From positions 39,944-103,943 of the forward strand of contig JAGAZE010000043.1 in assembly GCA_017940185.1 (NCBI GenBank): a stretch of DNA of 64,000 nucleotides, written 5' to 3'. The notes beneath the pieces are model-generated. The model ran no database searches and had not been told where the DNA came from. It saw only the letters and a list, made by a program, of their open reading frames with translations. How positions within the stretch are numbered: position 1 is the first letter of the stretch; each line of letters starts with the position of its first letter. This DNA is from Bacteroidaceae bacterium (GTDB taxonomy: Bacteria; Bacteroidota; Bacteroidia; Bacteroidales; Bacteroidaceae). Below, piece after piece: positions 5,645 to 63,777 of the stretch. Position numbers and translations under genes: made by a program.

Positions 5645-7390
5645 TTATTTCAGTCCGTTGGTTCCGAATATGATGTCGCGGTCTCGTTGCAGTGCGGGTT
5701 GTGCCCACTCTTCGGGCACGAAGCGCCAGTTGGTGTGTGCGCGCGGATGGAGGTAGCCCATCTTCTCTATCTCCTGCATGAGGTAGTAGCGCTGGTCGCG
5801 CGGGCTCTGGTAGATGATGCGCTTGGCCAGTTCTTCGCGCTTGATGCCGGCGCCCTTGGTGAGTAGCTCGCCTCCGCCGTTGCCCCGGTAGCTGTTCATC
5901 ACCACATTGTAGGTGCGTTCGGGGTCGAAGGGTTGTCCGTTGCTCATCTGCAGTATGCGCACCTTGCTGCCGTCGGGCTTGGTGACGTCCACCTCGTAGT
6001 CGATGCCGGCGGCGCTGTCGAAGTTGAAGGCCAGATTCCTGAAACCGTAGCGCTGCATGTCGTTGAAGTTGTATTCGCTGATTTGCATGATGTGGTCGTC
6101 GGGCGATGTCATGGTGTTCACCCACAGGTCGTAGCTCATCTCCAAGTGTCGGCGCACTTCTTCACCTGTCATGCGCAGCATGTAGATTTGGTTTTCGTAC
6201 TTATAGAGGTTGAACATATCGCTCACGTGGATGTCGCCTTTCTTTATCTGTGCGTCGAACACGAGTGGTGCGTTGATGGAGATGTCGGCTCCGGTGATGC
6301 GCATCTGCAAGTCGTGCACAAAGTCGGTGAAGGCAGCGGGTCCGAAGTAGGCGTCGCGGCTTGAGATGGTGGTGTCGCTGACGCCTATCTTGCGGTCGAC
6401 GTAGGCTCTTACGCTGTCGATGTCGCTCTGGAAGCGTTCCATGAAAGGTTGGTGGACGGGCATTTCTTCAATGTTGACCAAGCGTCCTTCAGCTTTCTTG
6501 TCGACCACTTTGCCGCCTTGCAGTGTGAGTGTGAGTCGCGCGTCGGCCACGTAGTGAGCATGTGCCGAGGGATTGAGGCATAGCACCTTGTTGCCTTCCA
6601 CATTCTCGATGGTGTCGTGGTGTATGGTGTGGTCGTGTCCGTAGAATATGATGTCGAAGCCGGGCACTTCGCGTGCTACGCGTAGGGTGGCGTCTTCTTC
6701 GTAGTCGGCGGTGGTGATGCCTCCTTCGCGTCCGGAGTGGAACAGGCCGACGATGACATCGGCTTTCTCCTTCGTCTTCACCACGTCTACCCATCGCCGT
6801 GCACAGCTCACCATCTCTTCGAAGTGCATGCCCTGCCACAGCGACTCGTGCAGCCAGAAGGGTATGGCGGGTGTGAGCATGCCGATGACGGCTATGCGTA
6901 TGCCCTCGCGGTCGAAGGTGGCATAGGGCAGCACGTAGGGCAGTCCCGTCTGGGTGTTGATGATGTTGGCACCCAGCACCGGGCAGCGCAACTCGCTTAT
7001 CCACTTGTCGTAGACGGCGTGACCCGTCTCCACGTCGTGGTTGCCGAAGGTCTGTGCGTCGTATTGCAGATAGTTGACCACCTTGGCTGCCACGTTGCTC
7101 AGCTCGGGGTGCACGTAGTTGGCATAGTAGCATGTGGGCTGTCCCTGCAGTATGTCGCCGTTTTCGAGCAGGAACAGTTTGTCGCCGTAGTGTTGTCGCA
7201 GGCTGTCGATGTAGTGGGCGGCGCGTGCCAGCGTGCCGGGCAACGGCCGGCGGTTGATGAAGTCGTAGGGGAAGAAGCAACCATGCACGTCGCTGGTCTC
7301 GATGAAGCGCAACTCGATAGTTTTTGTTTGGGCCATAGCTAAGGAAGGGGATAGCAATAAAGTGGTGACAGCCAGAAGAAAATGTTTCAT
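5645..7390 (-). CDS. Secreted 5'-nucleotidase / 2',3'-cyclic phosphodiesterase (metallophosphatase)
   Basis: A 581-residue exported enzyme that releases phosphate from nucleotides in the periplasm. Signal peptide: MKHFLLAVTTLLLSPSLAMA. The metallophosphatase domain shows the metal ligands in TSDVHGCFFP, LLENGDILQG, TFGNHDVETG and IFYGHDHTIH. The C-terminal 5'-nucleotidase substrate domain begins near residue 330 and includes SINAPLVFDAQ and NSYRGNGGGELL. The start at 7390 was chosen for the signal peptide and for the -7 element at 7434-7441, which lies within the longer frame. Confidence 0.9.
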   Translation of the reverse strand: MKHFLLAVTTLLLSPSLAMAQTKTIELRFIETSDVHGCFFPYDFINRRPLPGTLARAAHYIDSLRQHYGDKLFLLENGDILQGQPTCYYANYVHPELSNVAAKVVNYLQYDAQTFGNHDVETGHAVYDKWISELRCPVLGANIINTQTGLPYVLPYATFDREGIRIAVIGMLTPAIPFWLHESLWQGMHFEEMVSCARRWVDVVKTKEKADVIVGLFHSGREGGITTADYEEDATLRVAREVPGFDIIFYGHDHTIHHDTIENVEGNKVLCLNPSAHAHYVADARLTLTLQGGKVVDKKAEGRLVNIEEMPVHQPFMERFQSDIDSVRAYVDRKIGVSDTTISSRDAYFGPAAFTDFVHDLQMRITGADISINAPLVFDAQIKKGDIHVSDMFNLYKYENQIYMLRMTGEEVRRHLEMSYDLWVNTMTSPDDHIMQISEYNFNDMQRYGFRNLAFNFDSAAGIDYEVDVTKPDGSKVRILQMSNGQPFDPERTYNVVMNSYRGNGGGELLTKGAGIKREELAKRIIYQSPRDQRYYLMQEIEKMGYLHPRAHTNWRFVPEEWAQPALQRDRDIIFGTNGLK

Positions 7391-7433
7391 GACGGTAGGA
7401 GTGATGGGTGTGGGGCGGGTAGTGTCTGAGCCG

Positions 7434-7441
7434 CAAAGGTA
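7434..7441 (-). promoter_or_regulatory. -7 promoter element for the 5'-nucleotidase unit
   Basis: TACCTTTG on the minus strand, 44 bp upstream of the ATG and directly after the terminator of the preceding TonB receptor gene. Confidence 0.6.
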
Positions 7442-7450
7442 AGAAAAAAT

Positions 7451-7492
7451 GCCGACAGCCAAGATATTGCAGGCAATATCGTCGGCTGTCGG
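7451..7492 (-). terminator. Rho-independent terminator after the TonB receptor
   Basis: On the minus strand a long hairpin (outer stem CCGACAGCC, inner stem GATATTGC/GCAATATC) is followed by a CATTTTTTC run. It ends 22 bp after the receptor stop codon. Confidence 0.8.
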
Positions 7493-7513
7493 AAAGAGAG
7501 TGTGACTGCCATG

Positions 7514-9682
7514 TCAGAAGGAGACGGGCACCACGAGTTTACAGGTGATGTTGCGTCCCATGTTGTAGATGCCTGTGTGGCCGCTGATGGGATTGGGCTC
7601 GGCATACTTCAGTCGGCTGAGGTGGCTTTGGCAGGCTTTGTTGAAGAGGTTGTCGGCGGTCAGCACGATGGATACCACCCGCTCATATCGGCGACAGATG
7701 TCGATGCCTGCCGAACAGTGGAACAGCGTGTAGCCCGGTGTGGCTGTCTCGGTGGCGTAGGCAGCCATGAAGCGGTCTTGCCGGGCGTAGCAGTCCATGC
7801 CAAATGCCACGTAGGCGTTGTTCCACACGGGCTGGTCGTGGCTTATCTCATACTTGATGTCGGTGGTCCATCGCAGTGGCGGTATGAAGGGCAGGTAGCG
7901 TTGGTCGCGCCGGCTGTGCATCTGTCGTGCGCTGACATAGCTCAGCGTGCTGCCCAGGTGCAGACTGTGTATGGGGTGGAAGTCGGCGGCTATCTCTCCG
8001 CCCATCATGGTGGCGTCGCCGGCGGTGTAGCAGTAGTGCAGCAGGCCGGTGTCGTCGTCGTGTGGGTGGCGGCTGCGCGGCATGGCGGCAGCAGAGGGCG
8101 AAGGGGAGGGGTGCGTAGCGTCGTCGTGTTCGCGCTGCAGGTAGATGTAGTTGTCGATGCGGTTGGCAAAGAGGCTCACCTGCAGCGACAGCCAGCGGTC
8201 GGCATAGTCGAGTCCGAGGTCGAGCTGATGACTGTACTCCGGTCGCAGGCGGTGGTTGCCTTCTTCGAAGCGCAGCGTGCCCTCGTGCACGCCGTTGCTT
8301 CCCAGCTCACTCATGTTGGGTGCGCGGAAGCCGCGGGAGAGGTTGGCCTTCAGTGTGAGATGGTCGGAGGGGTGGTAGGCCGTGCCGATGCTGGCAGTGA
8401 GTCCGTGCAGGCGTCGGGCAAAGTCCGTGAAGCGCTGCTCGCCCTCGTCGGTGAGGGCGTAGCTGTGCAGCCAGCGCGTGTCGTAGCGCACGCCGCCGTT
8501 GAGGTCGAAGCACCCGAAGGTCTTCTCGGCAGTGGCGAATAGTCCTATGTCGAACAGGCGATAGGCTGGTATGAGGTATTCGTCGCCCTTGTTGCTGCTG
8601 CGTTGCACCATGCCGTTGATGCCGGCCGACAACTTCCACCCGTTGGCATTGGTGCGTGTGTAGCGCACGTCGTAGTTGACGGTGTGCAGCAGGAAGTGGA
8701 GTCCGCATGCGGCGCGGCCGTCGTCGTCTTCCTCATACTCCTTGCGTCGGTTTTGCTGATAGGCGGCCAGAATGTTGAGTGTGCCGCCGCCGAGGTAAAC
8801 CATATTGTCGAGTGCGGCCTTGTAGTGGTACACCTGCTGGTAGGGTAGGGCATGCCCGTAGGTGGTAGTCTTGTTGTAGCTGCGCAGCAGTCGGCCGGTG
8901 AGTGGGTCGCGTTCGCCTTCGGCAATAGAGGGGGTGAGGTGGAAGTAGCTGAGCCGCAGTCGGCTGAAGCCCCACTGCTGTCGCAGTGCGAGCAGACCGT
9001 TGAGTGCGCGTTGGCGGAATTGCGTGTTGGGCACGTAGCCATCGACAGGACTCTTGTAGGCATGTGCCATCTTGTCGGAGTAGCGCAGGTCCCATGCCAG
9101 GCTGTTGCTGCTGCCTCCGGCGTTGAGCGTATAGGCAAAGAGGCCGTTGTTGGTCTGATACTCCGTGGCAGCGTTGGCGTAGAGCTTTTCGCCGAAGGCG
9201 GGCGGGGCACTGTTGAACAGCAGCACGCCTCCCAGTGCGTCGGAGCCGTAAAGCAGACTGGCGGGACCCTTTAGTATCTGTACCGACTGCACGCTGTGCT
9301 CGTCGATTTCTATTCCGTGCTCGTCGCCCCATTGCTGTCCTTCCTGGCGTATGCCATCGTTGACAACGATGATGCGGTTGTATCCCAGTCCGCGTATCAC
9401 GGGCTTGGCGATGCCTCCTCCGGTGGTGATTTGCGATAAACCCGGCTGTCGGGCAATGCCGTCGATGAGGTTGGTGAACGCCAATTGCCGCAGGTCGCGC
9501 TGCGAGAGGATTGAGATGGGGATGGAGGTGTGTTTCAGTTTGGTCTGTCCCGTACTGCCCGTCACCACCACTTCGCGCAGCGACAGGTGGCGGAAGAAGA
9601 GGTCGGAGCTGTCGGCAGGCTGCTGTGCAGCGGCCGACAAGGCTGTCAGTGAGAAAACAGCCAAATGGATCAGGTGTCTCAT
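7514..9682 (-). CDS. TonB-dependent outer-membrane receptor
   Basis: A 722-residue gated barrel. Signal peptide MRHLIHLAVFSLTALSAAAQ; plug domain ~45-170 with LREVVVTGSTGQTKLKHT, PGLSQITTGGGIAKPVIRGL and GPASLLYGSDALGGVLLF; barrel from ~190 to the terminal VSF. It has no CarboxypepD_reg extension, so it resembles metal or siderophore receptors rather than SusC. A His/Cys-rich small membrane protein lies upstream in the same unit, which supports metal uptake. The start at 9682 was chosen for the signal peptide. The ligand is not shown by the sequence. Confidence 0.88.
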   Translation of the reverse strand: MRHLIHLAVFSLTALSAAAQQPADSSDLFFRHLSLREVVVTGSTGQTKLKHTSIPISILSQRDLRQLAFTNLIDGIARQPGLSQITTGGGIAKPVIRGLGYNRIIVVNDGIRQEGQQWGDEHGIEIDEHSVQSVQILKGPASLLYGSDALGGVLLFNSAPPAFGEKLYANAATEYQTNNGLFAYTLNAGGSSNSLAWDLRYSDKMAHAYKSPVDGYVPNTQFRQRALNGLLALRQQWGFSRLRLSYFHLTPSIAEGERDPLTGRLLRSYNKTTTYGHALPYQQVYHYKAALDNMVYLGGGTLNILAAYQQNRRKEYEEDDDGRAACGLHFLLHTVNYDVRYTRTNANGWKLSAGINGMVQRSSNKGDEYLIPAYRLFDIGLFATAEKTFGCFDLNGGVRYDTRWLHSYALTDEGEQRFTDFARRLHGLTASIGTAYHPSDHLTLKANLSRGFRAPNMSELGSNGVHEGTLRFEEGNHRLRPEYSHQLDLGLDYADRWLSLQVSLFANRIDNYIYLQREHDDATHPSPSPSAAAMPRSRHPHDDDTGLLHYCYTAGDATMMGGEIAADFHPIHSLHLGSTLSYVSARQMHSRRDQRYLPFIPPLRWTTDIKYEISHDQPVWNNAYVAFGMDCYARQDRFMAAYATETATPGYTLFHCSAGIDICRRYERVVSIVLTADNLFNKACQSHLSRLKYAEPNPISGHTGIYNMGRNITCKLVVPVSF

Positions 9683-54022: not shown

Positions 54023-54178
54023 AATGAGAGAGTGCCTTTTCCGAGGGCTGCAGCACTGCGCCGGCGTCTCCTGCCAAGGCGCCGCAAAGGTAAGAAAAAG
54101 AGACAATAATACGATATGCAGCCCTTCCTGAACAAGGCAGGCAATAGTGTGCGTAGACACATGTTCAGAAGAATTCTA

Positions 54179-54484
54179 TCAAAGAAGGCTTAATGTTTGT
54201 CTTGAGCCGACTTCCTCTGCGGTGTAAAGCATGGCAGGTGTGCCTTTCATCATTGCAGTTGGCATGTGTTTGCTGTCACAATAGACGATACCTACATTGT
54301 TGGCAACGAGCTGGATGATGAGAGGAACGGTAAGTTTGGCAGAATGGTGGTCTATCATAATCATCTTTATATCCTCTATGGGTCGCAATGCAACTTCGCC
54401 TGTTCTACTGTCAGTTATCACCATCATGCCACCCCGTAAGGATAGTTCTTTTGCAGATTCAATTACAATAACTTGCTTTGCCAT
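54179..54484 (-). pseudogene. cas1: Truncated cas1 (N-terminal domain only)
   Basis: 101 codons. Residues ~12-80 read like the beta-sandwich N-domain of Cas1 of type II systems: GGMMVITDSRTGEVALRP, IEDIKMIMIDHHSAKLTVPL and IVYCDSKHMPTAMM match the usual IEDI..(V/I)DH...(T/L)...L..NNV.(I/V).CD..HMP pattern. The catalytic helical domain (Glu, His, Asp) is missing, and after MPTAMM about 20 unrelated residues lead to a stop. Not a working integrase. It has its own -7 element (54493-54500) only a few bases before the ATG. It diverges from the repeats that begin 117 bp away. No cas2 or cas9 in the window. Confidence 0.75.
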
Positions 54485-54492
54485 TTTTAACG

Positions 54493-54500
54493 CAAAGGTA
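54493..54500 (-). promoter_or_regulatory. -7 promoter element for the cas1 fragment
   Basis: TACCTTTG on the minus strand, ending about 8 bp before the ATG, so the transcript would be nearly leaderless. Confidence 0.6.
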
Positions 54501-54548
54501 GAGAAAAAGGTAACACCCCAGTCGCTATAAATATAATGTCTGTTTTTT

Positions 54549-54578
54549 TTTGCAACTATTGTCGAATAACTACCTTTG
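54549..54578 (+). promoter_or_regulatory. Promoter reading into the repeat array
   Basis: TTTG at 54549-54552 and TACCTTTG at 54571-54578, 18 nt apart. Transcription would begin roughly 15-20 nt before the first repeat, as in a CRISPR leader. Confidence 0.65.
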
Positions 54579-54601
54579 CACGAGGAGTTTGAGAAATACG
54601 G

Positions 54602-54636
54602 GTTTGAAACGCCTGTTATGTAAAGTCAATTAAAAC
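54602..54636 (+). repeat. CRISPR-like repeat 1
   Basis: Begins GTTTGAAACGCCTGTTATGT and ends GTCAATTAAAAC. Confidence 0.9.
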
Positions 54637-54641
54637 CTTCG

Positions 54642-54649
54642 TACCTTTG
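54642..54649 (+). promoter_or_regulatory. -7 element between repeat 1 and the 66-residue ORF
   Basis: TACCTTTG only 4 bp before the ATG at 54654, predicting a leaderless transcript. Confidence 0.5.
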
Positions 54650-54653
54650 TGGC

Positions 54654-54854
54654 ATGAAAGAAGAACTGACAACAAAAATGCACTCCGAGTTTTCTGTTTC
54701 TGAAGAAACTGAAATGAGACTACGCGCTGGCAATATTTGGAATAATTTCAAAGACGCGCCAAAGAGTGATCAGCTCCGTTTATGTAAAGTATATGGAATA
54801 ACATGGGAGCAGGCTATGAAATATAAGACCTTTTGGCTATCACTTTCCAAATAA
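54654..54854 (+). CDS. Small hypothetical protein in the first repeat interval
   Basis: 66 residues, not recognised. Charged N-terminus (MKEELTTKMHSEFSVSEETE), then a segment with conserved-looking aromatics (GNIWNNFKDAPKSDQLRLCK, VYGITWEQAMKYKTFWLSL). No signal peptide. It starts 17 bp after repeat 1 and has a -7 element right before it. The rest of the interval (54855-54943) shows nothing. Confidence 0.5.
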   Translation: MKEELTTKMHSEFSVSEETEMRLRAGNIWNNFKDAPKSDQLRLCKVYGITWEQAMKYKTFWLSLSK

Positions 54855-54943
54855 ATATTCTATGAAGGTTTGGGATTTCGCCTTGTCTTTGATGTTCAAT
54901 TCTCCAAACCATTTCGCACCCCTCATATATTCTTTTGCCCCTT

Positions 54944-54978
54944 GTTTGAAACGCCTGTTATGTAAAGTCAATTAAAAC
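54944..54978 (+). repeat. CRISPR-like repeat 2
   Basis: Identical to repeat 1 over all 35 bp. Its inner end supplies the stop codon (TAA on minus) of the phage fragment that follows. Confidence 0.9.
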
Positions 54979-55404
54979 GTGGGGTGCCATTTTTGCAGTC
55001 CCCTGTTCTGGAAGCCCCCTTTGCGGAAGTTCTGCTGGTAGTGGTCTTTTGCCATACGTCCTACGATGACCGGCAGCCGACGGCGCATGAGCTGTTCTAT
55101 TTGCGTCCGGTGTGCAGCGAGTTCGTTTGCGAATTGTTTCACATTCATGTTTGTTGTTACTTTTTTTTGTGGCATGGTGGTGTAGAGCGCTTTGTCGCGG
55201 TAGTAGTCTAATGTGCCTTTGATGGTCTTTTGCTTGATGAGCTCGTATGCGCTGCATGGTGGTGATGACTGGCTTGCCGTTGATGTTGAGGATGATTACT
55301 TTGCAGCGCAGTTGATTTGCGAGCTTGTCGGCGTGTGTGACGGCGTGTGTGACGGCACGCTTCATGCGGATGTTGAAAATCCATGTTTTGATTTTTTCTT
55401 TCAT
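54972..55404 (-). pseudogene. Mu-like phage fragment: small conserved gene plus virion-morphogenesis protein remnant
   Basis: Two phage-type pieces. The last 67 codons (from 55175) read MNVKQFANELAAHRTQIEQL, RRRLPVIVGRMAKDHYQQNF and FRKGGFQNRGLQKW, the N-terminus of a Mu G-like virion morphogenesis protein, cut off where repeat 2 begins (stop inside the repeat). Upstream, the 5' part (WIFNIRMKRAVTHAVTHADK, then VIILNINGKPVITTM) resembles a small gene that often precedes it. Its frame breaks near 55257: the continuation ELIKQKTIKGTLDYYRDKAL lies in another frame. An 8-A run (near 55161-55168) also fuses the two; one A fewer would create a stop. Confidence 0.65.
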
Positions 55405-55579
55405 ATTTTTTTTGTGTTTTGAAAATTATTGTTATCTTTGCAGTGTCCCTTTGGGTGCGACATTAAGTTCTGTCTCGGAACAGCACTCTGGGGACATTTT
55501 TTATTCTTCCATAATAGAGTAGAATTGTTCTTTACCAAATGTCATTCTTTCCAATTTTACAAGGAACTTTCTGCCATTA

Positions 55580-55614
55580 GTTTGAAACGCCTGTTATGTA
55601 AAGTCAATTAAAAC
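55580..55614 (+). repeat. CRISPR-like repeat 3
   Basis: Identical to repeats 1 and 2. Confidence 0.9.
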
Positions 55615-55626
55615 ATAAAGTGACGT

Positions 55627-56097
55627 ATGAAAAAAAATACATTAACGTTGTTGTTGGCATTATTTATAAGTAATGTTTATGCCCAAATAAATACAAATAT
55701 ACTCGGATGTAAGTTAGGAGTGTCAAGTAAAGCTACAGTTGAGCGAGTATTAAAGTCCAAAGGACTAAACATAGAAAAGAGTAATGCAATCGATTTGTTA
55801 GAAGGTGTTACTTTCTATGACATTAAAGATGGTGTTTCTTTTGGAGGTATTATTTGGGATGATGCAAGAATACGTTTTATTAATGGAAAATTTGCTTCGA
55901 TTATATTTTCAAAAGTAGCTTCAAGAGAAACATATAATAAAATATTCGCTTCTTTGAAAAAGAAATATGCGAGGTATCTTATTTCAGCAGATTATCCTGC
56001 GCCCTTTTTTCAAGATAATAATACCGAAATAATTATGATGCACGGAGATAAGCTTTCACTATCATATGGGTGCAGAAAATTTTTCGATGACGAATAG
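55627..56097 (+). CDS. Exported low-GC hypothetical protein in the third repeat interval
   Basis: 156 residues. Signal peptide MKKNTLTLLLALFISNVYAQ, then a single ~135-residue domain with NTNILGCKLGVSSKATVERV, GVSFGGIIWDDARIRFINGK and FASIIFSKVASRETYNK. Related-looking small exported proteins occur in Bacteroidetes accessory regions; function unknown. It is strikingly AT-rich compared with the 53-kb side. The start lies 12 bp after repeat 3, and the last base of its TAG stop is the first base of repeat 4, so it fills its interval exactly. Confidence 0.7.
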   Translation: MKKNTLTLLLALFISNVYAQINTNILGCKLGVSSKATVERVLKSKGLNIEKSNAIDLLEGVTFYDIKDGVSFGGIIWDDARIRFINGKFASIIFSKVASRETYNKIFASLKKKYARYLISADYPAPFFQDNNTEIIMMHGDKLSLSYGCRKFFDDE

Positions 56098-56130
56098 TTT
56101 GAAACACCTGTTATTAAAGTCAATTAAAAC
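56097..56130 (+). repeat. CRISPR-like repeat 4 (variant)
   Basis: GTTTGAAACACCTGTTATTA then AAGTCAATTAAAAC: one G-to-A change and one base lost. Terminal-repeat degeneration like this is usual at the leader-distal end of CRISPR arrays. Confidence 0.85.
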
Positions 56131-56167
56131 GTCATAGTCGATATCTTATTGTTACTGATTCTACTGA

Positions 56168-56200
56168 AAAGGTGGTTAATCGTAACCGACAAACCACCTC
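56168..56200 (-). terminator. Terminator after the flavodoxin gene
   Basis: On the minus strand, stem AGGTGGTTT/AAACCACCT with a ~13-nt loop followed by TTTTC, 39 bp past the stop. Confidence 0.65.
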
Positions 56201-56238
56201 ATTACTAAACAAATACTTTATGAAATATTATCCTGTGA

Positions 56239-56733
56239 TTACAATTCAGGAGAGATGGCGGCTATCCATGCCTTGATGCGGGTATCCGTCTTGTCATCCT
56301 CGTTGATGTCATCGAGGGGCAGGCCAATGAACTTACCGTCAATCACGGCCTCAGAGTCATCGAAGGTGTAGTCGTCGGTCTCTACCGAGCCGATGAACTT
56401 GGCACCGCTGTCTTTGATACCGTTGTAGAGTTCGCCCATGCCGCCTACGAAGGTGTCGCTGTATGACGAGCAGTCGCCACAGCCAAAGAGAGCAATAGTC
56501 TTACCCGTCAAGTCAGCACTTTGCAGGGTTTTCAGACCGTCGTACCAGTCATCCTGCAATTCTCCTGCGCCCCATGTCGAGGTACCGAGAATCAGGTTTT
56601 GGTTAGCAGACACGATGTCGGCAGTCAGTTCCTGTACATTCAAGGCCTCACAGCCCAGTTTCGAGGCAATCTTCTCTGCGATAGCCTCGCAGGTCCCCGT
56701 TGAGGAACCATAGATTACAATTGTTGCGTTCAT
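56239..56733 (-). CDS. fldA: Flavodoxin
   Basis: 164 residues, long-chain type. FMN phosphate loop IVIYGSSTGTCEAIAEKIAS, LILGTSTWGAGELQDDWYDG and ALFGCGDCSSYSDTFVGGMG. One-electron carrier that replaces ferredoxin under iron limitation. It follows the DUF2023 gene by 25 bp, a pairing seen in other Bacteroidetes. Confidence 0.95.
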   Translation of the reverse strand: MNATIVIYGSSTGTCEAIAEKIASKLGCEALNVQELTADIVSANQNLILGTSTWGAGELQDDWYDGLKTLQSADLTGKTIALFGCGDCSSYSDTFVGGMGELYNGIKDSGAKFIGSVETDDYTFDDSEAVIDGKFIGLPLDDINEDDKTDTRIKAWIAAISPEL

Positions 56734-56758
56734 TTTGTGATTTATTCAAAAGAAGTTA

Positions 56759-57154
56759 TTAAATACTATTCATACATGCTTCGCACTTCACTTGGCACTT
56801 CCCCTCACACTGACTCTTGCGTTTGCAGTACCTTTCGCACTGTGCACAGAGGTCGTAGCCCAGCATGGCGCCAAGGATGAAATCCTCCTCAGGCGTAAGC
56901 TGGTTCAACGGGCGTGTGACGATGAGCCTGATGGCATCCAGACACTCACGCCGACCGAAATACACGTTAAGGTTCTGTCGTCCGGCAGGCTGCAGCAGAT
57001 AAGGAATACCCTGACTCTCCAGTCGCTGTATGGCTTGTTCACTGTACTTCTTGTTGCAGGTGAACAGCACCATGTGGCGAACACCCTTGCTCAGCTCGTA
57101 GATGTGGTTCATCAACACCTTCATCTCTGTGGGAATCGTCTTTGCTCTCATCAT
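56759..57154 (-). CDS. DUF2023 family protein with C-terminal cysteine cluster
   Basis: 131 residues. The core (MKVLMNHIYELSKGVRHMVL, GIPYLLQPAGRQNLNVYFGR, LTPEEDFILGAMLGYDLCAQ) matches DUF2023. The last ~25 residues hold seven cysteines (CAQCERYCKRKSQ, CEGKCQVKCEAC), possibly for an iron-sulfur cluster or zinc. Gene order with flavodoxin suggests a redox or flavodoxin-maturation role. Start may be at either of two adjacent ATGs, or at residue 12. Confidence 0.8.
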   Translation of the reverse strand: MMRAKTIPTEMKVLMNHIYELSKGVRHMVLFTCNKKYSEQAIQRLESQGIPYLLQPAGRQNLNVYFGRRECLDAIRLIVTRPLNQLTPEEDFILGAMLGYDLCAQCERYCKRKSQCEGKCQVKCEACMNSI

Positions 57155-57406
57155 TTTTCAAATTACGGTGCGAAGGTGCAGCAAACAAACAAGGTGTGCA
57201 ATACCTAAAAATGAGTATTTTCAAAGATTGCACGCCTATGGTGACCAACAAAAGCAGATTAGTAAGAAATAGGTATTGCTAATAATAATAATTGTGCCAA
57301 CCTGTCGTAGTTGTATAGCTTATATTTCGTGATAATGTGATGTCGAGTGGATTCTTTGTCATAAACCTTATCTTATTTCGTATAATGTCTGATAAATTGG
57401 GATTAA

Positions 57407-57442
57407 GCGGACAACATCTGTCATTGTCATGTCAATTAAAAC
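57407..57442 (+). repeat. Degenerate CRISPR-like repeat 5
   Basis: Only the 3' part is clear: CTGTCATTGTCATGTCAATT then AAAAC, compared with CTGTTATGTAAAGTCAATT in repeats 1-3. Same orientation. It overlaps the start of the next ORF. Confidence 0.5.
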
Positions 57443-57623
57443 GGAAAGTTACGAAATAGACAAGCGACTTAAAGCAAACGGCGGCAAACCGCTTAAGATC
57501 CACCGTGAGAGTATCGCGCGGTACGGAAAGAGCGTAGATGTGGATAGAACTCTGCAAGAGTTATCCGAAGAGAAATCGGAAGAACAGAATAGCGCGCTTG
57601 CAAGTATGATGAATGGATTGTAG
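57429..57623 (+). CDS. Small hypothetical protein starting inside repeat 5
   Basis: 64 residues; not recognised. Charged throughout (SYEIDKRLKANGGKPLKIHR, SVDVDRTLQELSEEKSEEQN). The first four codons (MSIK) are the repeat's GTCAATTAAA. Its end overlaps the M24 peptidase fragment by 11 bp in another frame. Could be a fragment of a larger unknown gene. Confidence 0.4.
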   Translation: MSIKTESYEIDKRLKANGGKPLKIHRESIARYGKSVDVDRTLQELSEEKSEEQNSALASMMNGL

Positions 57624-58146
57624 TATGGCGAAGCCTGGGGTGAAATATATGGACGTACACTTTGCCGTCTGCCGCTTGATGACAGAACGACTGAAAGAAC
57701 TCGGACTGATGAAGGGCGATGTTGACGAAGCTGTTGCAGCAGGTGCTCATGCCATGTTCCTGCCTCACGGACTGGGTCACATGATGGGTATGGACGTGCA
57801 CGATATGGAAGGATTGGGACAGATTTATGTCGGCTTCGACGAGGAGATACGACCTAACCTGGAACAGTTCGGTACCAACTGCCTGCGTATGGGTCGCCGC
57901 CTACAGGAGGGCTTCGTCGTTACCGATGAGCCAGGCATCTACTTCATCCCTGCCCTTATCGACGACTGGCGCAAGAGCGGCCACTGTGCGGAGTTCCTGA
58001 ACTTCGGCCTGTTGGAAACCTACAAGGACTTTGGTGGCATCCGTATCGAGGACGATGTGCTCATCACCAAGGATGGCTGCCGTTTCCTCGGAGAAAAACG
58101 AATCCCCTACCACCCGAAAGACGTGGAAGCCTTCATGGCGCAATGA
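57613..58146 (+). pseudogene. 5'-truncated Xaa-Pro aminopeptidase (M24 family)
   Basis: 177 codons corresponding to the C-terminal ~40% of a PepP-type metallopeptidase. Present: HGLGHMMGMDVHDMEGLGQI (metal-ligand His), VVTDEPGIYFIPALIDDWR and GGIRIEDDVLITKDGCRF (two metal-ligand Glu). Missing: the N-terminal domain and the two metal-ligand Asp of the catalytic domain, so it cannot be active. The break is at its 5' side, next to the small ORF and repeat 5. Sequence after the break is otherwise intact, implying recent loss. Confidence 0.85.
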
Positions 58147-58689: not shown

Positions 58690-59307
58690 CTATTGCTGTG
58701 AAGGAACCTTCACGCCGTTCTTCTTCATCTGTTGCAAACGATGGTTCACACGAGCTTTCGCCAGCTTGCGCATTCTCTCCTGTTCACTATCGTTGGGATC
58801 AATTTGTACCTGTACCGTTCCTGAATAGCCGTTATCGTCGGTGTAGGTGGAAGTGACTGTTTGTGATTGCGCCTTTACTTTACCTGTACCGCTGCAAACA
58901 TGACACTGCCATTTGGTCACCTTGTTGCCATTGCACTGGTTGCAAACATATTTGCCAGCACCTTCACACTTCCAACAGACAATCTGACCGGTTGTCTTAC
59001 ACTTCTCGCATTCGGGTGTTCCCTTGCCGCCACACCATTGGCACTCACGCCAATTATCCTTGACCTGCACGCCACCTTTACCACGACAATGGGCGCAAAA
59101 GATTTTGCCTTCACCACCACAGTCGTTACAGCGCACCATCTTCTTGCCCAAGCAGAAGTCGCACTCGCGGTAGCCTTCACCTTTACAGAAAGCGCAGTCG
59201 CGATACTCCAAACCAGAACCGTGACAGTTGTCACATTCCTTTGTCTGAGCCTGAGCAGAGAGACCTGCCGTCAGGATAATTGCTAAAGTTAAAATAAATC
59301 GTTTCAT
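58690..59307 (-). CDS. Exported DnaJ-type zinc-finger protein with ten CxxC motifs, no J domain
   Basis: 205 residues. Signal peptide MKRFILTLAIILTAGLSAQA, then residues ~23-150 are ten CxxC motifs in a row: CDNCHGSG, CAFCKGEG, CDFCLGKK, CNDCGGEG, CAHCRGKG, CQWCGGKG, CEKCKTTG, CWKCEGAG, CNQCNGNK, CHVCSGTG. In DnaJ this CxxCxGxG domain binds two zinc ions and unfolded protein. Here it is doubled, outside the cytoplasm, with no J domain. A ~50-residue charged tail (SEQERMRKLAKARVNHRLQQ) may be helical. Function unknown; a periplasmic zinc or redox chaperone is an inference. Confidence 0.85.
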   Translation of the reverse strand: MKRFILTLAIILTAGLSAQAQTKECDNCHGSGLEYRDCAFCKGEGYRECDFCLGKKMVRCNDCGGEGKIFCAHCRGKGGVQVKDNWRECQWCGGKGTPECEKCKTTGQIVCWKCEGAGKYVCNQCNGNKVTKWQCHVCSGTGKVKAQSQTVTSTYTDDNGYSGTVQVQIDPNDSEQERMRKLAKARVNHRLQQMKKNGVKVPSQQ

Positions 59308-59377
59308 AATGGTATTGTTTTATTAGTTATTCTTGTTATGGATGATAGTCGCGCCAGCCGCAGTGAGGCTCACGTTT

Positions 59378-60721
59378 TCATTCCTTTTCTTTTTCAGCGA
59401 TAAGACTTTTTACTTTGTCAAGTGTGTAACCATCGGTAACGGGCACCACCTCTACCACCTCATCGTCCACATGATAGGCACCCATGCGGTTGCCGTCGCC
59501 CACAAGCAGATACATGCCGCCCTTGAGGGTGAAGTAAGTGTTGATATAAGAATAAGCGACGGGAATCTCCACCGTACCGTTGAAAGTGCCGATAACACCC
59601 GACAACCCATTTTTTCTCACCTTTGCCAGTATGCCGTCATACGTGCCGCTGCGGTCAATCAGTTCCACATAGTCATACTCGCATGGAATAGTCATGGGAT
59701 TATTATTATCATTAAGCCCCTGGTTCATGTCTTCGATGTCGGGGTTGTAAATACCATGCTGGAGTACGCCACTATTATTTCTCATGGTAACATCAAAGAC
59801 AACTATCTTCCCTCCGACCTCATTGACAACAGTTGATAACATCTTGACGCTCTCAAACTTAGGCTCGCACATCTTGGCGCCGCCACGGTTGTAGATGCCC
59901 CACTTGCCGTTATCGTCACGGACAAGAATATACTGGTTGATGCCATTGGCCTCGACAAATTCCACCTTGGAGAACTGCCCCACCTCCTTACCGTCGGTTG
60001 TATAAAGCAACCAGCGTTCCTCACCATTGGGCATTGTGGCTCCGATGGCACGTGCGAAGTAGCCACCGAAAGTCAGCTCCTTGTCGTAGTGTTGTGCAAT
60101 ATACGTCCCTGGGGCGACAGTGTGCGTATATGTGGCATTGTCCTGCTGTGTTGATTGAGCCTTACGCTCGGCTTCTTCACGTTTCCTATTAAATTCGGCC
60201 AAATGCCAATCAAAGGAATTAAGCAAGTTATCCTCGCAAACATGAAAATCTATTATCGCCTTACGTCGTTCTTCGGGTGTGGTTGCGGCAAGTGCTTTGG
60301 CCTTCGCTTCAATAGCCATCTTCTGCAGCAGAACAAAAGCACACCAGCGTTCATGAGCCACGCTGCCGCATGCGGGGCAGGTAATCATGTGATCTCCATC
60401 ACCGGCATTATACATACAGTGATATTTACCAGACGAAATCTTCAATCGGCTTTTGACTTCGGGAAGCGGCTTGTAGTCATGCAAATGGGTTGAGCCTGAA
60501 CTCGACGACGAACTGCTTGATGATGACTCCTCGCTAGACGGTGCCGAGTAATAGGGGCAACTGGAGGCGTGGGGTGTCACCTCAACCCACTGCCCGCCCT
60601 TTTTCTCAAAGCGAGCCTTTTCACAGTAGGCACAAACACCGCCAGACACTGTAGGAATCTGTGCATGTACAGATACCACTGCAGCAAGTGCCATTGGTAT
60701 CAAAAGGGCTATACGTTTCAT
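59378..60721 (-). CDS. Exported protein with CxxC...HxxxCP zinc motif and WG-like repeats
   Basis: 447 residues; not a family I can name. Signal peptide MKRIALLIPMALAAVVSVHA. Residues ~28-60 hold a CxxC...HxxxCP motif (CAYCEKARF, then HASSCPYYS), then a Ser-rich linker, then a second cysteine group (CPACGSVAHERWCAF). From ~260 on are WG-type beta repeats (NGKWGIYNRGGAKMCEPKFE, NGLSGVIGTFNGTVEIPVAY). ATG 60721 chosen for the signal peptide. It starts 4 bp after the preceding stop, so translation is coupled. Confidence 0.75.
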   Translation of the reverse strand: MKRIALLIPMALAAVVSVHAQIPTVSGGVCAYCEKARFEKKGGQWVEVTPHASSCPYYSAPSSEESSSSSSSSSSGSTHLHDYKPLPEVKSRLKISSGKYHCMYNAGDGDHMITCPACGSVAHERWCAFVLLQKMAIEAKAKALAATTPEERRKAIIDFHVCEDNLLNSFDWHLAEFNRKREEAERKAQSTQQDNATYTHTVAPGTYIAQHYDKELTFGGYFARAIGATMPNGEERWLLYTTDGKEVGQFSKVEFVEANGINQYILVRDDNGKWGIYNRGGAKMCEPKFESVKMLSTVVNEVGGKIVVFDVTMRNNSGVLQHGIYNPDIEDMNQGLNDNNNPMTIPCEYDYVELIDRSGTYDGILAKVRKNGLSGVIGTFNGTVEIPVAYSYINTYFTLKGGMYLLVGDGNRMGAYHVDDEVVEVVPVTDGYTLDKVKSLIAEKEKE

Positions 60722-60725
60722 AGTC

Positions 60726-61595
60726 TTATTGTATTTTGGGGGTTTGTGGTACTTGTGGAACCTCAGGAACTTGATTGAACAGCGGACAGCCTTTGTTGTG
60801 GTTACGACCGTTCTTGAAAGCAAGGCTTGCCGACTTGCCGGTGAACTCGGCACCACATTGCGGACAAGTGATATGAATATCATGCGGGGGCTGTACCGGT
60901 TTTGTACTTTGCGACGACGGCAAACTGTCGTTCACTTCCGAATCTTGAGCATACGGACAGTTCGCTTGATGGGCTTCACCTGCAGTCAGGTTTACATCGC
61001 AAAAGATGCAATAGGCTTCTTCCACATTCGGATTCAGGCTTTCAATAGCCGTGATAAACGCTTCAATCTCCTGTTTGGAGCCGAAAGGCAGGATGAAGCC
61101 GGGATGACGGTTTTTATCCTTGTCGACGATAGGTGACACACTAAGATATACAGCATCATCACCCACGAACATCATCTGCGTATAAGCCTCCACATGGGCA
61201 TCCTTCATGTTGTGATACTCCGGTTCTGGTGGTGTACCTATATCAAACCATGCCGTCACGTTCTTGAAATTTGTATCGAACAGGACTGCTGCATCCTCGA
61301 TGCCTGTAACAGGTGCTTTCGTCTCCCACCACAGCCCTGCCTTGTCAGCAAGAGAACGCAGTTCCTTGACAAATGCTGGGATGTGCTTACTCGATAAACG
61401 TATTCCAACGATTGGGATATGCTTGTTAAGCGACTGGCCATAGATGAGACAGTCGAAAGACTTTCCCTTAACATTCTCTACCAACACGCCATAATCCCTA
61501 CCGGTTACCGACGAGTGCCACGACTTGTATTTCTGTGCCTGAATGGTCAGCATACAAGTTACGGCTATTGCTGTGGTTAATAAGAATCTTTTCAT
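60726..61595 (-). CDS. Exported protein with two CxxC...HxxxCP zinc motifs
   Basis: 289 residues; not recognised as a named family. Signal peptide MKRFLLTTAIAVTCMLTIQA. The N-terminal ~180 residues form a beta-rich domain (IVGIRLSSKHIPAFVKELRS, WFDIGTPPEPEYHNMKDA). The C-terminal third carries CIFC...HQANCPYAQ and CPQC...HNKGCPLFN, then a Pro/Val tail. The same C2HC pattern is in the next gene. Overlaps the previous gene's stop by 4 bp. Confidence 0.75.
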   Translation of the reverse strand: MKRFLLTTAIAVTCMLTIQAQKYKSWHSSVTGRDYGVLVENVKGKSFDCLIYGQSLNKHIPIVGIRLSSKHIPAFVKELRSLADKAGLWWETKAPVTGIEDAAVLFDTNFKNVTAWFDIGTPPEPEYHNMKDAHVEAYTQMMFVGDDAVYLSVSPIVDKDKNRHPGFILPFGSKQEIEAFITAIESLNPNVEEAYCIFCDVNLTAGEAHQANCPYAQDSEVNDSLPSSQSTKPVQPPHDIHITCPQCGAEFTGKSASLAFKNGRNHNKGCPLFNQVPEVPQVPQTPKIQ

Positions 61596-61786
61596 AGCGT
61601 GTCGTTATTCTCTTTTAGCATTTCTTTCATCATTTCCTCATATATCTCCATTGAAGACTTGCCTTCCTCCAAACCCTTCGTAACAGGGTCTTTCTCCACG
61701 ACATTAGGCTTCCTTTGCGGCTCAATCATTACTCCGATGAAAAGTCCCACTACCACGATGGTGGTCCAAATGATGATCTTCCTCAT
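61592..61786 (-). CDS. Small membrane-anchored protein
   Basis: 64 residues. An N-terminal hydrophobic segment (MRKIIIWTTIVVVGLFIGVM) followed by a charged helix-like tail (EEGKSSMEIYEEMMKEMLKE). Its stop overlaps the next start (4 bp). Perhaps an inner-membrane partner of the exported proteins. Confidence 0.65.
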   Translation of the reverse strand: MRKIIIWTTIVVVGLFIGVMIEPQRKPNVVEKDPVTKGLEEGKSSMEIYEEMMKEMLKENNDTL

Positions 61787-61827
61787 ACTTCTTTCTTCCT
61801 TCTCTCCATACTCCTTTATTCCATGTT

Positions 61828-61857
61828 CCCTCCCCTTGGGAGGGTTAGGGAGGGGTC
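61828..61857 (-). repeat. Intercistronic GC-rich hairpin element, copy 1
   Basis: Minus strand: GACCCCTCCCTAACCCTCCC AAGGGGAGGG, directly after the stop of the EF-hand gene; followed by a purine-rich AAAGGAGTATGGAGAGAAGG tract. Same arrangement as copy 2. Confidence 0.6.
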
Positions 61858-61858
61858 T

Positions 61859-62884
61859 TTATTTATACTCCACCTTCGCCTGCTCACCCTTATAGGCTAC
61901 GGGGTATTTGATTGTCGGCTTGCAACCTTTAGCCAAGATGATCTTCTTCAACATGCGGCAGTCGCTCAGATCCACTTCCTTCAGTTTCTTGCAAGCGCTC
62001 AGGTCAACTGTTTCGGCATACGAAGTACCTGCGTCGAAATACTCCAGATTGGGGAAATACTTCAGGTCGTCGTAGTTCTTGATGATGCGGATGAAGCTCT
62101 TGAAGCACATCAGACTGAGGTTTTTCACAGCCTTGGCTTCCTCTACAGACACCTGACCGTCTTTGTCAGCATCAACATCCTTCAGCCACTCGATGCAGAA
62201 ATCGCGGACACCATTGTCCTTGAACACGATGATGTCTGTTGGTTCCGTCAACTGTGCCGTGAAATAGTTCTGCTTCAACACATCGAGACTATAGTTGCAC
62301 GCTACTTCCAAATTGCCGTTATGCCAGAGTCCGTAAGGTCCTACCCCATCGTTCTCGCTGACGATATAATAAGTATCGCCGTCCTGCTGAATCGGCTCCA
62401 CATACTGATAACCATCCTGGAACAGCTGACGGGAAACTGGGTCATCCACCCAGAACTCCACCTTGATGGCTTCTCTGGAAGGATCTTCACCAGTGATTTC
62501 TGGAGCCGTTTCGCAGCCTACGATGATCTTCTTCAACCAGAGGGCGCTGCTCACGTTCACCAGCTTGAGTTTCTTCAGCATATGCAGATCGACAACCTCC
62601 AACGGCGTGTTGCCTACCGAGAACATCTCCAGGTTGGGGAAATACTTCAGGAAGTCATAGTTCTCAATCACGTTCGAGCGTCCGCCACGATCGAGACCCA
62701 GTTTTGTAGCTGCAGCAGCCTCAGCGTAGGTAACGATACCGTCTTTATTAGTATCGCAAATTTCAAAACAATGAGAGAAGAAATTCTCGTTCTCTATTTT
62801 AATAAAGACGTCGTTGGCGTCTTGTGCCTGTACAGTCATCAAGCCAAAAGCGGCAACTGTTGCGGTTAAAATATATTTTTTCAT
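61859..62884 (-). CDS. Exported EF-hand-like / leucine-rich-repeat protein
   Basis: 341 residues. Signal peptide MKKYILTATVAAFGLMTVQA. Two calcium-type loops with the DxDxDG spacing: CDTNKDGIVTYAEAAA (residues ~43-58) and DVDADKDGQVSVEEAKAV (~240-257). Each is followed by a leucine-rich stretch (FPNLEMFSVGNTPLEVVDLH, then FPNLEYFDAGTSYAETVDLS) with LKKLKLVNVS-type repeats. So the protein is a tandem of EF-hand plus LRR units. Likely a surface or periplasmic binder. The leader holds ACGACCAA repeats. Confidence 0.8.
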   Translation of the reverse strand: MKKYILTATVAAFGLMTVQAQDANDVFIKIENENFFSHCFEICDTNKDGIVTYAEAAAATKLGLDRGGRSNVIENYDFLKYFPNLEMFSVGNTPLEVVDLHMLKKLKLVNVSSALWLKKIIVGCETAPEITGEDPSREAIKVEFWVDDPVSRQLFQDGYQYVEPIQQDGDTYYIVSENDGVGPYGLWHNGNLEVACNYSLDVLKQNYFTAQLTEPTDIIVFKDNGVRDFCIEWLKDVDADKDGQVSVEEAKAVKNLSLMCFKSFIRIIKNYDDLKYFPNLEYFDAGTSYAETVDLSACKKLKEVDLSDCRMLKKIILAKGCKPTIKYPVAYKGEQAKVEYK

Positions 62885-62886
62885 AA

Positions 62887-62925
62887 TGATTGGTCGTTTG
62901 GGAAATTGGTCGTTTGGTCGTTTAG
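62887..62925 (-). repeat. Leader repeat of ACGACCAA units before the EF-hand gene
   Basis: Minus strand: AAACGACCAAACGACCAATT then TCCCAAACGACCAATCA directly before the ATG. Closely similar to the leader at 3917-3951. Confidence 0.6.
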
Positions 62926-62966
62926 GAATGTTACTTCCTCTCCTTTACTCCTTACTCCTTTAAATG

Positions 62967-62999
62967 CCCCTCCTCTTGGGAGGGGATGAGGGTGGGGTC
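62967..62999 (-). repeat. Intercistronic GC-rich hairpin element, copy 2
   Basis: Minus strand: GACCCCACCCTCATCCCCTC then CCAAGAGGAGGGG, overlapping the stop codon of the 104-residue gene, followed by AAAGGAGTAAGGAGTAAAGG. Matches copy 1 in layout. Confidence 0.6.
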
Positions 63000-63312
63000 A
63001 ATCATTCGTATGAATGGTTCCGCGACCGAGACAGCGTGTACAGAGCACGCGGCCCTTACCATCACATACTCGGCACTCATTATAACCTGTGCCGTCACAA
63101 ATACCGCAAGTGTATGTACTTCCTTTATAATCTACTACACCAGAGCCACCACACTTGATACATGCACAACGGGGGTTGCCGTTACAGTTCGGACATGACA
63201 GACTTCCGCTACCGCCACAACTATCACAGGTACGTTCGCCTGTTATCGTAAAACTCATGGCTATCATTGCTATTGCTACAACAACAAATGATCTGAATGC
63301 TGACTTTTTCAT
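62998..63312 (-). CDS. Exported DnaJ-type zinc-finger protein with six CxxC motifs
   Basis: 104 residues. Signal peptide MKKSAFRSFVVVAIAMIAMS, then six CxxC motifs filling the rest: CDSCGGSG, CPNCNGNP, CIKCGGSG, CGICDGTG, CRVCDGKG, CTRCLGRG, ending in TIHTND. No other domain. Sister of the 205- and 134-residue proteins in the cluster. Confidence 0.85.
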   Translation of the reverse strand: MKKSAFRSFVVVAIAMIAMSFTITGERTCDSCGGSGSLSCPNCNGNPRCACIKCGGSGVVDYKGSTYTCGICDGTGYNECRVCDGKGRVLCTRCLGRGTIHTND

Positions 63313-63372
63313 AATGAATAGGTTTTTGTAATTATTCTAACTGTTTATTCTCTTTTTGTTTCCGATGGCCAA

Positions 63373-63777
63373 CTACTGGCAATCCGGACAAAGCACTTTG
63401 TTCAGTCCGTCACAACGACGGCAAACCTGATTGCCATTAAAGCAATCCTTAGGGATGCCAGGACACTTCACATAGCCTTTGCGATCACAATGACTGCAGT
63501 CTCTTACCTTTCCCACGCCCTTGCACGCTGAGCAGGTAGCGTTGTTGTAGTACTTTGAACCGTGACATACCGGACAGGTATATGAATCTCCGTGACAATA
63601 GTCACAAATAACATTACCCAGTCCCTTACAAATCTGGCAAATAGGAGGATTACCATTACAATCTGGACAAGTAATAACACCTTTGCCTCCACATGTTCTA
63701 CACTCGTCGTCATGATGTGCCATCATCGACATCGTGCCTGTGATGACAACTGCTAGAATCATAATTGCTCGTTTCAT
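63373..63777 (-). CDS. Exported DnaJ-type zinc-finger protein with nine to ten CxxC motifs
   Basis: 134 residues. Signal peptide MKRAIMILAVVITGTMSMMA, an HHDDE start to the mature part, then CRTCGGKG, CPDCNGNP, CQICKGLG, CDYCHGDS, CPVCHGSK, CSACKGVG, CSHCDRKG, a gapped C...C pair, CRRCDGLN and a final CPDC. First gene of the cluster, about 65 bp after its promoter. Confidence 0.85.
   Translation of the reverse strand: MKRAIMILAVVITGTMSMMAHHDDECRTCGGKGVITCPDCNGNPPICQICKGLGNVICDYCHGDSYTCPVCHGSKYYNNATCSACKGVGKVRDCSHCDRKGYVKCPGIPKDCFNGNQVCRRCDGLNKVLCPDCQ

Follow-up and report, generated by a model that had tools for sequence, protein, structure and literature searches.

Type II-C CRISPR-Cas systems of Bacteroidota combine cas9, cas1 and cas2 with regular arrays. 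Integrons keep captured DNA as an ordered array behind a promoter, and have a tyrosine recombinase. Casposons have a family B DNA polymerase and are bounded by terminal inverted repeats. In ordinary CRISPR arrays, 97% of spacers are 29–43 nt long (PMC4869251), and a type V-A study reports that Cas1 and Cas2 alone set spacer length, with full insertion being most efficient at 27–29 nt (PMC13034035). Adaptation genes are also described as stand-alone modules, including RT-Cas1 modules positioned beside an array (PMC6452270). Casposons are described as Cas1 transposons, in which Cas1 acts on DNA far longer than a spacer (PMC6452270, PMC9939771). Among titles and the opening parts of abstracts in the open-access literature, preprints excluded, we found no description of CRISPR arrays with long inserts. 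By default, CRISPRDetect is reported to allow a maximum of 125 nt plus the word length between repeating words (PMC4869251), meaning that long-insert arrays would escape such a detector.

Here, we describe a locus in a 64 kb stretch of Bacteroidaceae DNA (“the window”), together with its relatives in other genomes. The original prediction offered two readings of the repeats at this locus: very large DNA pieces captured at a CRISPR leader, or a system of repeat-bounded gene cassettes. The first is now strongly supported, since a cas1–cas2 remnant adjoins the array, ten genomes carry full-length cas1 at related loci, and four inserts are copies of DNA elsewhere in the same genome; the second does not hold generally, because the located sources lie inside genes and insert orientation is evenly split (see below). 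From these sequence comparisons, it is very probable that the inserts are long spacers placed by a Cas9-free Cas1–Cas2 integrase, and that the window carries a relic of such a CRISPR-derived DNA-capture module. The features of the window are listed in Table 1.

Table 1. Features of the repeat array and the adjoining cas remnants in the window
Feature	Position	Strand	Remarks
Probable cas2 C-terminus remnant	54168–54248	-	Out of frame with cas1 remnant; tblastn match, weak alone
Type II-like cas1, first 78 codons; remainder missing	54251–54484	-	TIGR03639, Pfam Cas1, identity to L070, clade
Leader, 117 bp	54485–54601	+	TAnnTTTGC box at 54571–54579, directed into array
Repeat 1 (leader-proximal)	54602–54636	+	35 bp
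Insert 1, 307 bp	54637–54943	+	66-codon ORF 54654–54854, start 17 nt past repeat
Repeat 2	54944–54978	+	Identical to repeat 1
Insert 2, 601 bp, phage-like	54979–55579	+	67-codon Neck1/tail-completion fragment 54972–55175 (-), cut off at repeat 2
Repeat 3	55580–55614	+	Identical to repeat 1
Insert 3, 482 bp	55615–56096	+	Filled by 156-codon ORF 55627–56097
Repeat 4	56097–56130	+	34 bp; one substitution and one deletion
Insert 4 or native flank, 1,276 bp	56131–57406	+	Flavodoxin 56239–56733 (-), DUF2023 56759–57154 (-); Pfam
Repeat 5, probable decayed distal repeat	57407–57442	+	10 edits; 4 edits in last 24 bases

The repeats at 54602–56130 are as originally predicted, i.e., three identical 35-bp direct repeats and a fourth with two changes. 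The gaps between them match the predicted lengths (307, 601 and 482 bp), as does the last gap, to repeat 5, at 1,276 bp against ~1,280 bp. Decay toward one end is also borne out, with 0, 0, 0, 2 and 10 edits in successive repeats going away from cas1. The degenerate fifth repeat is probable, but its support is weak: at full length its 10 edits make it the best place outside the array in 64 kb, with 11 edits at the runner-up, while its last 24 bases have 4 edits as opposed to 6 at the runner-up place. The segment at 56131–57406 would count as an insert only with a genuine repeat 5. The proposed coincidences of ORF and repeat edges are all present: the TAG of the 156-codon ORF ends on the first base of repeat 4, the phage fragment stops inside repeat 2, and a 64-codon ORF (57429) starts inside repeat 5. 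The possibility that the repeat is a generic interspersed element, scattered singly and unlinked to cas genes, is rejected, because all three matches in its own genome (≤3 substitutions allowed, a setting blind to the deletion in repeat 4) lie within this array, beside the cas1–cas2 remnant. The same search across 397 further genomes from this genus gave zero matches, and the exact repeat has no match in viral contigs.

The cas1 fragment matches TIGR03639 with E 1.6e-14 and 53.9 bits, below the cut-off of 120, and Pfam Cas1 with 18.4 bits, under the cut-off of 22.3. It is 64% identical to L070 Cas1 over residues 1–78. The putative cas2 remnant aligns to residues 78–104 of L070 Cas2, with 41% identity over 27 residues (tblastn, E 0.004). 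Judged by its sequence, the window copy is a relic of a Cas9-free DNA-capture module; most of its cas1 and cas2 is missing, and it would therefore no longer be able to acquire DNA by itself. The truncated cas1 had gone unnamed in the original prediction.

The ten closest loci by Cas1 (L070–L079) come from other Bacteroidota genomes, all metagenome bins, and consist of cas1–cas2 with long-insert arrays in one of two layouts: (a) the array is 5′ of cas1, or (b) the array follows cas2. They resemble type II-C systems in their Cas1 family (TIGR03639, 251–285 bits against the cut-off of 120 in 5/5 long-clade proteins scanned), in having Cas2, in the similar length of their direct repeats and, for layout (b), in the position of the array. 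They differ from type II-C systems in layout (a), in insert length, in the absence of an eight-residue segment near the Cas1 C-terminus, and in the lack of cas9. No tblastn match to Cas9 was found in the DNA around any of the ten loci, although this is less sure for L074, where only 1.4 kb lies upstream of cas1; by comparison, 69 of 70 other Cas1 loci have a match. Similarly, 58 of the 59 arrays found among those 70 loci have a median spacing of 65–78 bp, whereas exact repeat copies in L070–L079 are 225–3,519 bp apart, save for one 66-bp spacing in L076. ORFs of 104–125 aa were called as cas2 by position in 9/9 loci examined (L079 was viewed as DNA only); two of two scanned match Cas2_II (PADLOC), and one of four scanned matches NCBIfam cas2. 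The L078 call is odd, in that the 125-aa ORF extends into the first repeat.

Like the stand-alone adaptation modules, these loci have adaptation genes adjoining an array, with no effector (PMC6452270). They differ in that the parts of that article drawn on here make no mention of long spacers, and in that the scanned window ORFs and neighboring genes include no reverse transcriptase. As in casposons, Cas1 would handle DNA far exceeding spacer length (PMC6452270, PMC9939771); unlike casposons, the loci have cas2 and a multi-repeat array, with no family B polymerase among the 10 neighboring genes scanned. Rfam and ARAGORN found nothing in six loci. Plasmid sequences include 14 records with Cas1 relatives, all at <60% identity (32–39% for the 10 of 14 matches listed), and comparing the Cas1 alignment with viral contigs gave 34 stretches that fit a pattern, none confirmed.

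Repeats in the ten loci are 34–37 bp long and nearly identical inside each array, but differ between arrays. Including the window, there are 61 inserts, irregular in length, ranging from 31 to 3,482 bp (median 432 bp), and mostly 200 to 3,500 bp. The uniformly short spacers of a CRISPR array are missing, with a single insert of 61, in L076, having an ordinary length (31 bp); length control may be partly retained. Other features are CRISPR-like: near-identical repeats, a leader at the cas side, far-end decay, and copied inserts that end at repeat edges. In the window, L070, L071, L074, L077, L171 and L079, edits are most numerous in the last repeat; L171 and L079 also have single edits elsewhere, so that decay is not strictly distal. 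L072, L073, L075 and L076 have repeats without edits in the stretch examined, and the two repeats of L078 are identical.

The origin of some inserts can be traced. We tested 45 of the 61 inserts for a source in the same genome, in part with 40 of 41–53 candidates scored. Four are 98–100% copies of DNA elsewhere in that genome: L075 c3 (335 bp), L075 c5 (226 bp) and L077 c4 (412 bp) have zero mismatches, and L075 c2 has 6 mismatches in 357 bp. In each copied insert, homology stops within 3 bases of the repeat edge. For the other 41, no near-identical source covering the full length was found in their own genome. Three of the four copied inserts are among the first five of the leader-side contig of L075, and none of 12 on the distal contig is a copy; the L075 array consists of two contigs that are not joined. 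Insert 6 of L073 matches another genome over 786 bp at 92% identity, with one end of the match at the repeat edge. The sources show no clear PAM, their leader-side flanks being ATG, ATA, GTG, TCG and perhaps TTG, although sources are few.

Support for acquisition is comparative throughout. In the mechanism that we propose, the Cas1–Cas2 integrase of the intact relatives would take long DNA pieces from the host chromosome, phages and other mobile elements. Each piece would be inserted at the leader-side repeat, and copying of that repeat would leave the piece between two identical repeats, with older pieces pushed outward from the leader. We infer that Cas1–Cas2 itself would make the long insertion, free of the ordinary CRISPR length limit, and that the leader would be both the entry point of new pieces and the origin of array transcription. 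If so, a Cas1–Cas2 clade with adjoining inserts of hundreds to thousands of bp, without Cas9, would break the rule that Cas1–Cas2 sets spacer length, and would separate adaptation from interference. Comparison with sister Cas1 proteins could then reveal how the length limit works, and a long-insert Cas1–Cas2 could serve as an integrase with which to record long DNA in cells.

RNA-guided DNA cutting with the stored pieces is unlikely, given that some match the cell's own DNA perfectly. A possible role, to which we give somewhat less than even weight, is that of a natural gene bank, in which a CRISPR-derived integrase without a spacer length limit would archive gene-sized pieces of self DNA and phage DNA, kept in order in an array driven by its leader. 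The cell would then use this DNA not for RNA-guided cutting but by expressing it, recombining it or making antisense RNA from it.

A rather unlikely variant, compatible with long-piece capture by Cas1–Cas2, is a memory that acts through RNA, in which the leader promoter would drive transcription of the array and the long transcripts would serve as antisense RNAs against phages, with no nuclease encoded at the locus. In all five array-bearing loci of layout (a), as well as in L230, a TAnnTTTGC box, presumably the Bacteroidota −7 promoter element, points toward the array; a box of this type is present in 18 of 2,000 shuffles of the window leader. Overlap between some inserts of the L075/L171 array also fits this idea, as might be seen with repeated sampling of one element family. 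However, the arrays also contain pieces of host genes, which occur in either orientation with respect to the gene, and a search for a tracrRNA-like anti-repeat beat all shuffles in 0/10 long-clade loci, a weak test given that only 3/10 ordinary controls did so.

The clade might instead consist of broken, ordinary type II-C loci, in which the adaptation genes left after Cas9 loss occasionally make useless, aberrant long insertions. The type II family of Cas1, the 31-bp spacer in L076 and the broken window copy are consistent with this explanation, which we nonetheless regard as very unlikely on four grounds. First, the cas1 reading frame is unbroken in all ten relatives, and one genome has 22 repeats. 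Second, E148, H205, D217 and E220 of Cas1, which we take to correspond to the active site, are conserved in 10/10 long-clade proteins, just as they are in 33/33 ordinary ones. Third, leader geometry is kept: in the window, L070, L071, L072 and L073, the distance to the cas1 ATG is 116–118 bp for the first repeat and 85–87 bp for the TAnnTTTGC box. Fourth, the trait marks a single clade, rather than scattered Cas9 losses. In a quick tree, all 11 long-spacer rows, including the window fragment, fall on one side of a branch with SH-aLRT 100, and the trait requires one change on the Cas1 tree versus a mean of 10 after shuffling.

There is slighter reason still to favor integron-like cassettes, in which the repeats would be recombinase sites and the inserts complete genes that the leader promoter would express. 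Long-insert loci do share with integrons an order of captured DNA behind a promoter, with the promoter-like box facing the array. In the window, ORFs of inserts 1 and 3 start 17 and 12 nt past a repeat, and whole-gene cassettes in a fixed orientation look convincing there; they fail over 60 inserts. ATG ORFs that begin ≤30 nt from the leader-side edge are in weak excess, with 14/60 inserts, as against 6/60 for the opposite edge (Fisher p 0.085). By contrast, each of the four sources that were located is a piece from within a gene, such that bracketing of whole genes, as originally proposed, is not the rule. Orientation is mixed as well, with the longest stop-free frame running away from the leader in 23 inserts and toward it in 31 (p 0.34), and the 26 clear-cut cases dividing 13 to 13. 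Unlike integrons, the repeats are near-identical and direct, and the linked genes are cas1–cas2. A scan of 10 neighboring genes, taken from seven of the ten loci, showed no tyrosine recombinase or other recombinase. Lastly, chance repeats or an assembly artefact could be suspected with one genome per species and ten metagenome bins, but hardly explain the same architecture with different repeats in separate assemblies of different species.

The window also allows some observations on its individual inserts, none of which has a second copy in its genome; for 56131–57406, this holds at the DNA level (E 0.001). Insert 1 has no Pfam family above the cut-off and no NCBIfam family. In insert 2, residues 6–63 of the 67-codon ORF are 48% identical to Bacteroides phages (E 1e-14; 8 of 35 matching records listed), where the matched gene is 633 nt long; this fragment also matches PHROG 26 (E 0.005), and an overlapping 148-codon ORF in another frame has no phage match. 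For the insert 3 ORF, no match was found above the Pfam cut-off or in NCBIfam, PHROGs or plasmids. The genome of the window has a Cas9-like gene at a separate locus, with 25–27% identity. By eye, the start of the 156-codon ORF of insert 3 resembles a signal peptide.

The closest relatives of the window's Cas1 have unusually long repeat spacing. In a set of 149 related genomes, the best Cas1 matches come from other families within the order (G400, 63%; G415, 41%), and at both loci neighboring repeats are separated by hundreds to thousands of bases. The third-nearest Cas1 (G043, 40%) is encoded next to cas9; no array was found in its 5.4-kb contig. Seven of the eight other loci fetched alongside G400 and G415 carry arrays spaced 65–66 or 76–79 bp, barring single steps. 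A scan of 84,980 species returned 332 Cas1 relatives, and the best 80 of these were kept. In the top ten of the 80 (L070–L079), spacing is long and irregular, and Cas9 matches are absent. Among the remaining 70 ("ordinary" loci), 69 have a Cas9 match, and 58 of the 59 in which arrays were seen have a median spacing of 65–78 bp, although some skip a step or include an odd one. L133, which lacks a Cas9 match, has a regular array on a contig of 5.8 kb. At L079, Cas1 identity is only 47%, and one of the three repeats is badly decayed. Searching 398 genomes of the genus added two Cas1 proteins with 73–75% identity to that of L071, one of them interrupted by an internal stop codon; the contigs break off 154 and 801 bp past the cas1 start, and no array is readable there. 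In the ordinary group, L125 has three exact repeat copies, 66 and 1956 bp apart.

We drew a quick midpoint-rooted tree of 44 rows: the window fragment, 33 ordinary loci (of 70), and the 10 long-spacer loci. In it, a branch with an SH-aLRT of 100 separates the 11 long-spacer rows from the rest, and the window fragment, which covers 26% of columns, sits beside L070. Contig C22 of the window's own genome carries a separate, ordinary-looking CRISPR system; its Cas1 is encoded by an open frame of 328 codons, and its Cas9-like gene shows 25–27% identity.

Features of the window locus and of other loci discussed in the text
Feature	Location	Details
Window repeats	window 54602-57442	repeats 1–3 identical (35 bp); repeat 4 with two edits; repeat 5 probable, decayed
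Gaps between window repeats		307, 601, 482, 1276 bp
C-terminal part of an M24 peptidase gene, lacking its beginning	window 57613-58146	directly past the decayed fifth repeat
Several small proteins rich in CxxCxGxG motifs	window 58690-63777	
Internal duplications	window 61937-62664	near the CxxCxGxG-protein region
Separate ordinary-looking CRISPR	C22 of the window genome (L037), about 7097-7716	47-bp repeats, spacing about 77 bp
One 31-bp spacer	L076:6242-6342	between identical repeats, adjoining a 617-bp insert
Several mutually overlapping inserts	L171:56-6401	both orientations

Within its own genome, matches to the window repeat (up to 3 substitutions) are confined to the array. Directly to the left, reading away from the repeats, is a type II-like cas1 of which the first 78 codons remain, with 64% identity to an intact relative over 78 residues and family scores below curated cut-offs. 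A probable cas2 end (E 0.004 only) follows out of frame, an arrangement that points to a former cas1-cas2 pair with an internal deletion. The M24 peptidase piece may be one more insert, or the array may have interrupted this gene.

The 12 arrays (counting separately the two contigs of the L075 genome, i.e., leader-side L075 and distal L171) hold 61 inserts of 31–3482 bp (median 432; 41.5 kb in total) between repeat cores of 34–37 bp. From the leader outward, repeat edits number 0, 0, 0, 2, 10 in the window; 0, 0, 0, 6 in L070; six zeros, then 2 and 4 in L077; and 1, 0, 10 in L079. In L171, three distal repeats carry one edit each and the last carries 8; no edits were seen in L072, L073, L075, or L076. 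In five loci (the window and L070–L073) the array lies 5′ of cas1, and the first repeat is 116–118 bp away from the start of cas1; a TAnnTTTGC box, which we take to be the Bacteroidota −7 element, stands at 85–87 bp in these five. L230 also has the box, at 88. In six loci (L074–L079), the array lies 3′ of cas2. The L071 and L073 repeats start with GGTTCGAAT, resembling the T-arm of a tRNA; ARAGORN found no tRNA in either locus. Locus surroundings vary, and the ten neighboring genes scanned, from seven of the ten loci, match ordinary enzyme, transporter, and regulator families, plus one DUF1015.

We searched for own-genome sources of 45 inserts (window, 4; L075, 8; L171, 12; L077, 7; L072, 6; L073, 8). 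Whole-insert copies were found for four: L075 c3 and c5 (no mismatch), L075 c2 (6 mismatches in 357 bp), and L077 c4 (412 bp, no mismatch). None of the other 41 had a copy at such a level, with four of the six array searches scoring 40 of 41–53 own-genome candidates. All four sources lie inside reading frames. Two of these frames resemble aminotransferase and S46-type peptidase genes; one looks like an asparaginase (Pfam on the insert), and one is a large unnamed gene, in which the copied piece starts just past the apparent start codon. The original prediction was that the repeats bracket whole genes instead of spacers; tests of orientation and ORF starts give whole-gene capture no support.

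The three copies in the L075 genome all belong to the first five of the eight leader-side inserts; the 12 distal-contig inserts have no copies outside the array. Several distal inserts overlap each other at 66–100% identity, as if one mobile-element family had been sampled repeatedly. L073 insert 6 has a 786-bp, 92% match in another genome, one end on the repeat edge and the other inside the insert; that region lies near transposase- and portal-like genes. Phage-like matches of inserts include Neck1 (window), an ATPase (L077), and PHROGs of unknown function.

The loci show what integration by Cas1–Cas2 yields: repeats that hardly vary within an array and differ from one array to the next, copied inserts exact to the base, decay at the distal end, and linkage to cas1-cas2. 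Insert length is the only feature foreign to it. Four Cas1 residues, which we take to correspond to the active site, are conserved in 10 of 10 long-spacer loci. Eight residues near the C-terminus are missing throughout the clade, and this missing stretch is a candidate explanation, from sequence comparison, of insert length. Judged likewise from sequence, the few located sources, the lack of a clear PAM, and the 31-bp spacer in L076 count against integration of long pieces by Cas1–Cas2. An array guiding a DNA nuclease would make perfect self-matches in chromosomal genes harmful; therefore, such interference is unlikely. The array may act as a gene bank or an antisense memory, or may be a by-product. 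Farther along the window, the CxxCxGxG motifs are DnaJ zinc-finger-like.
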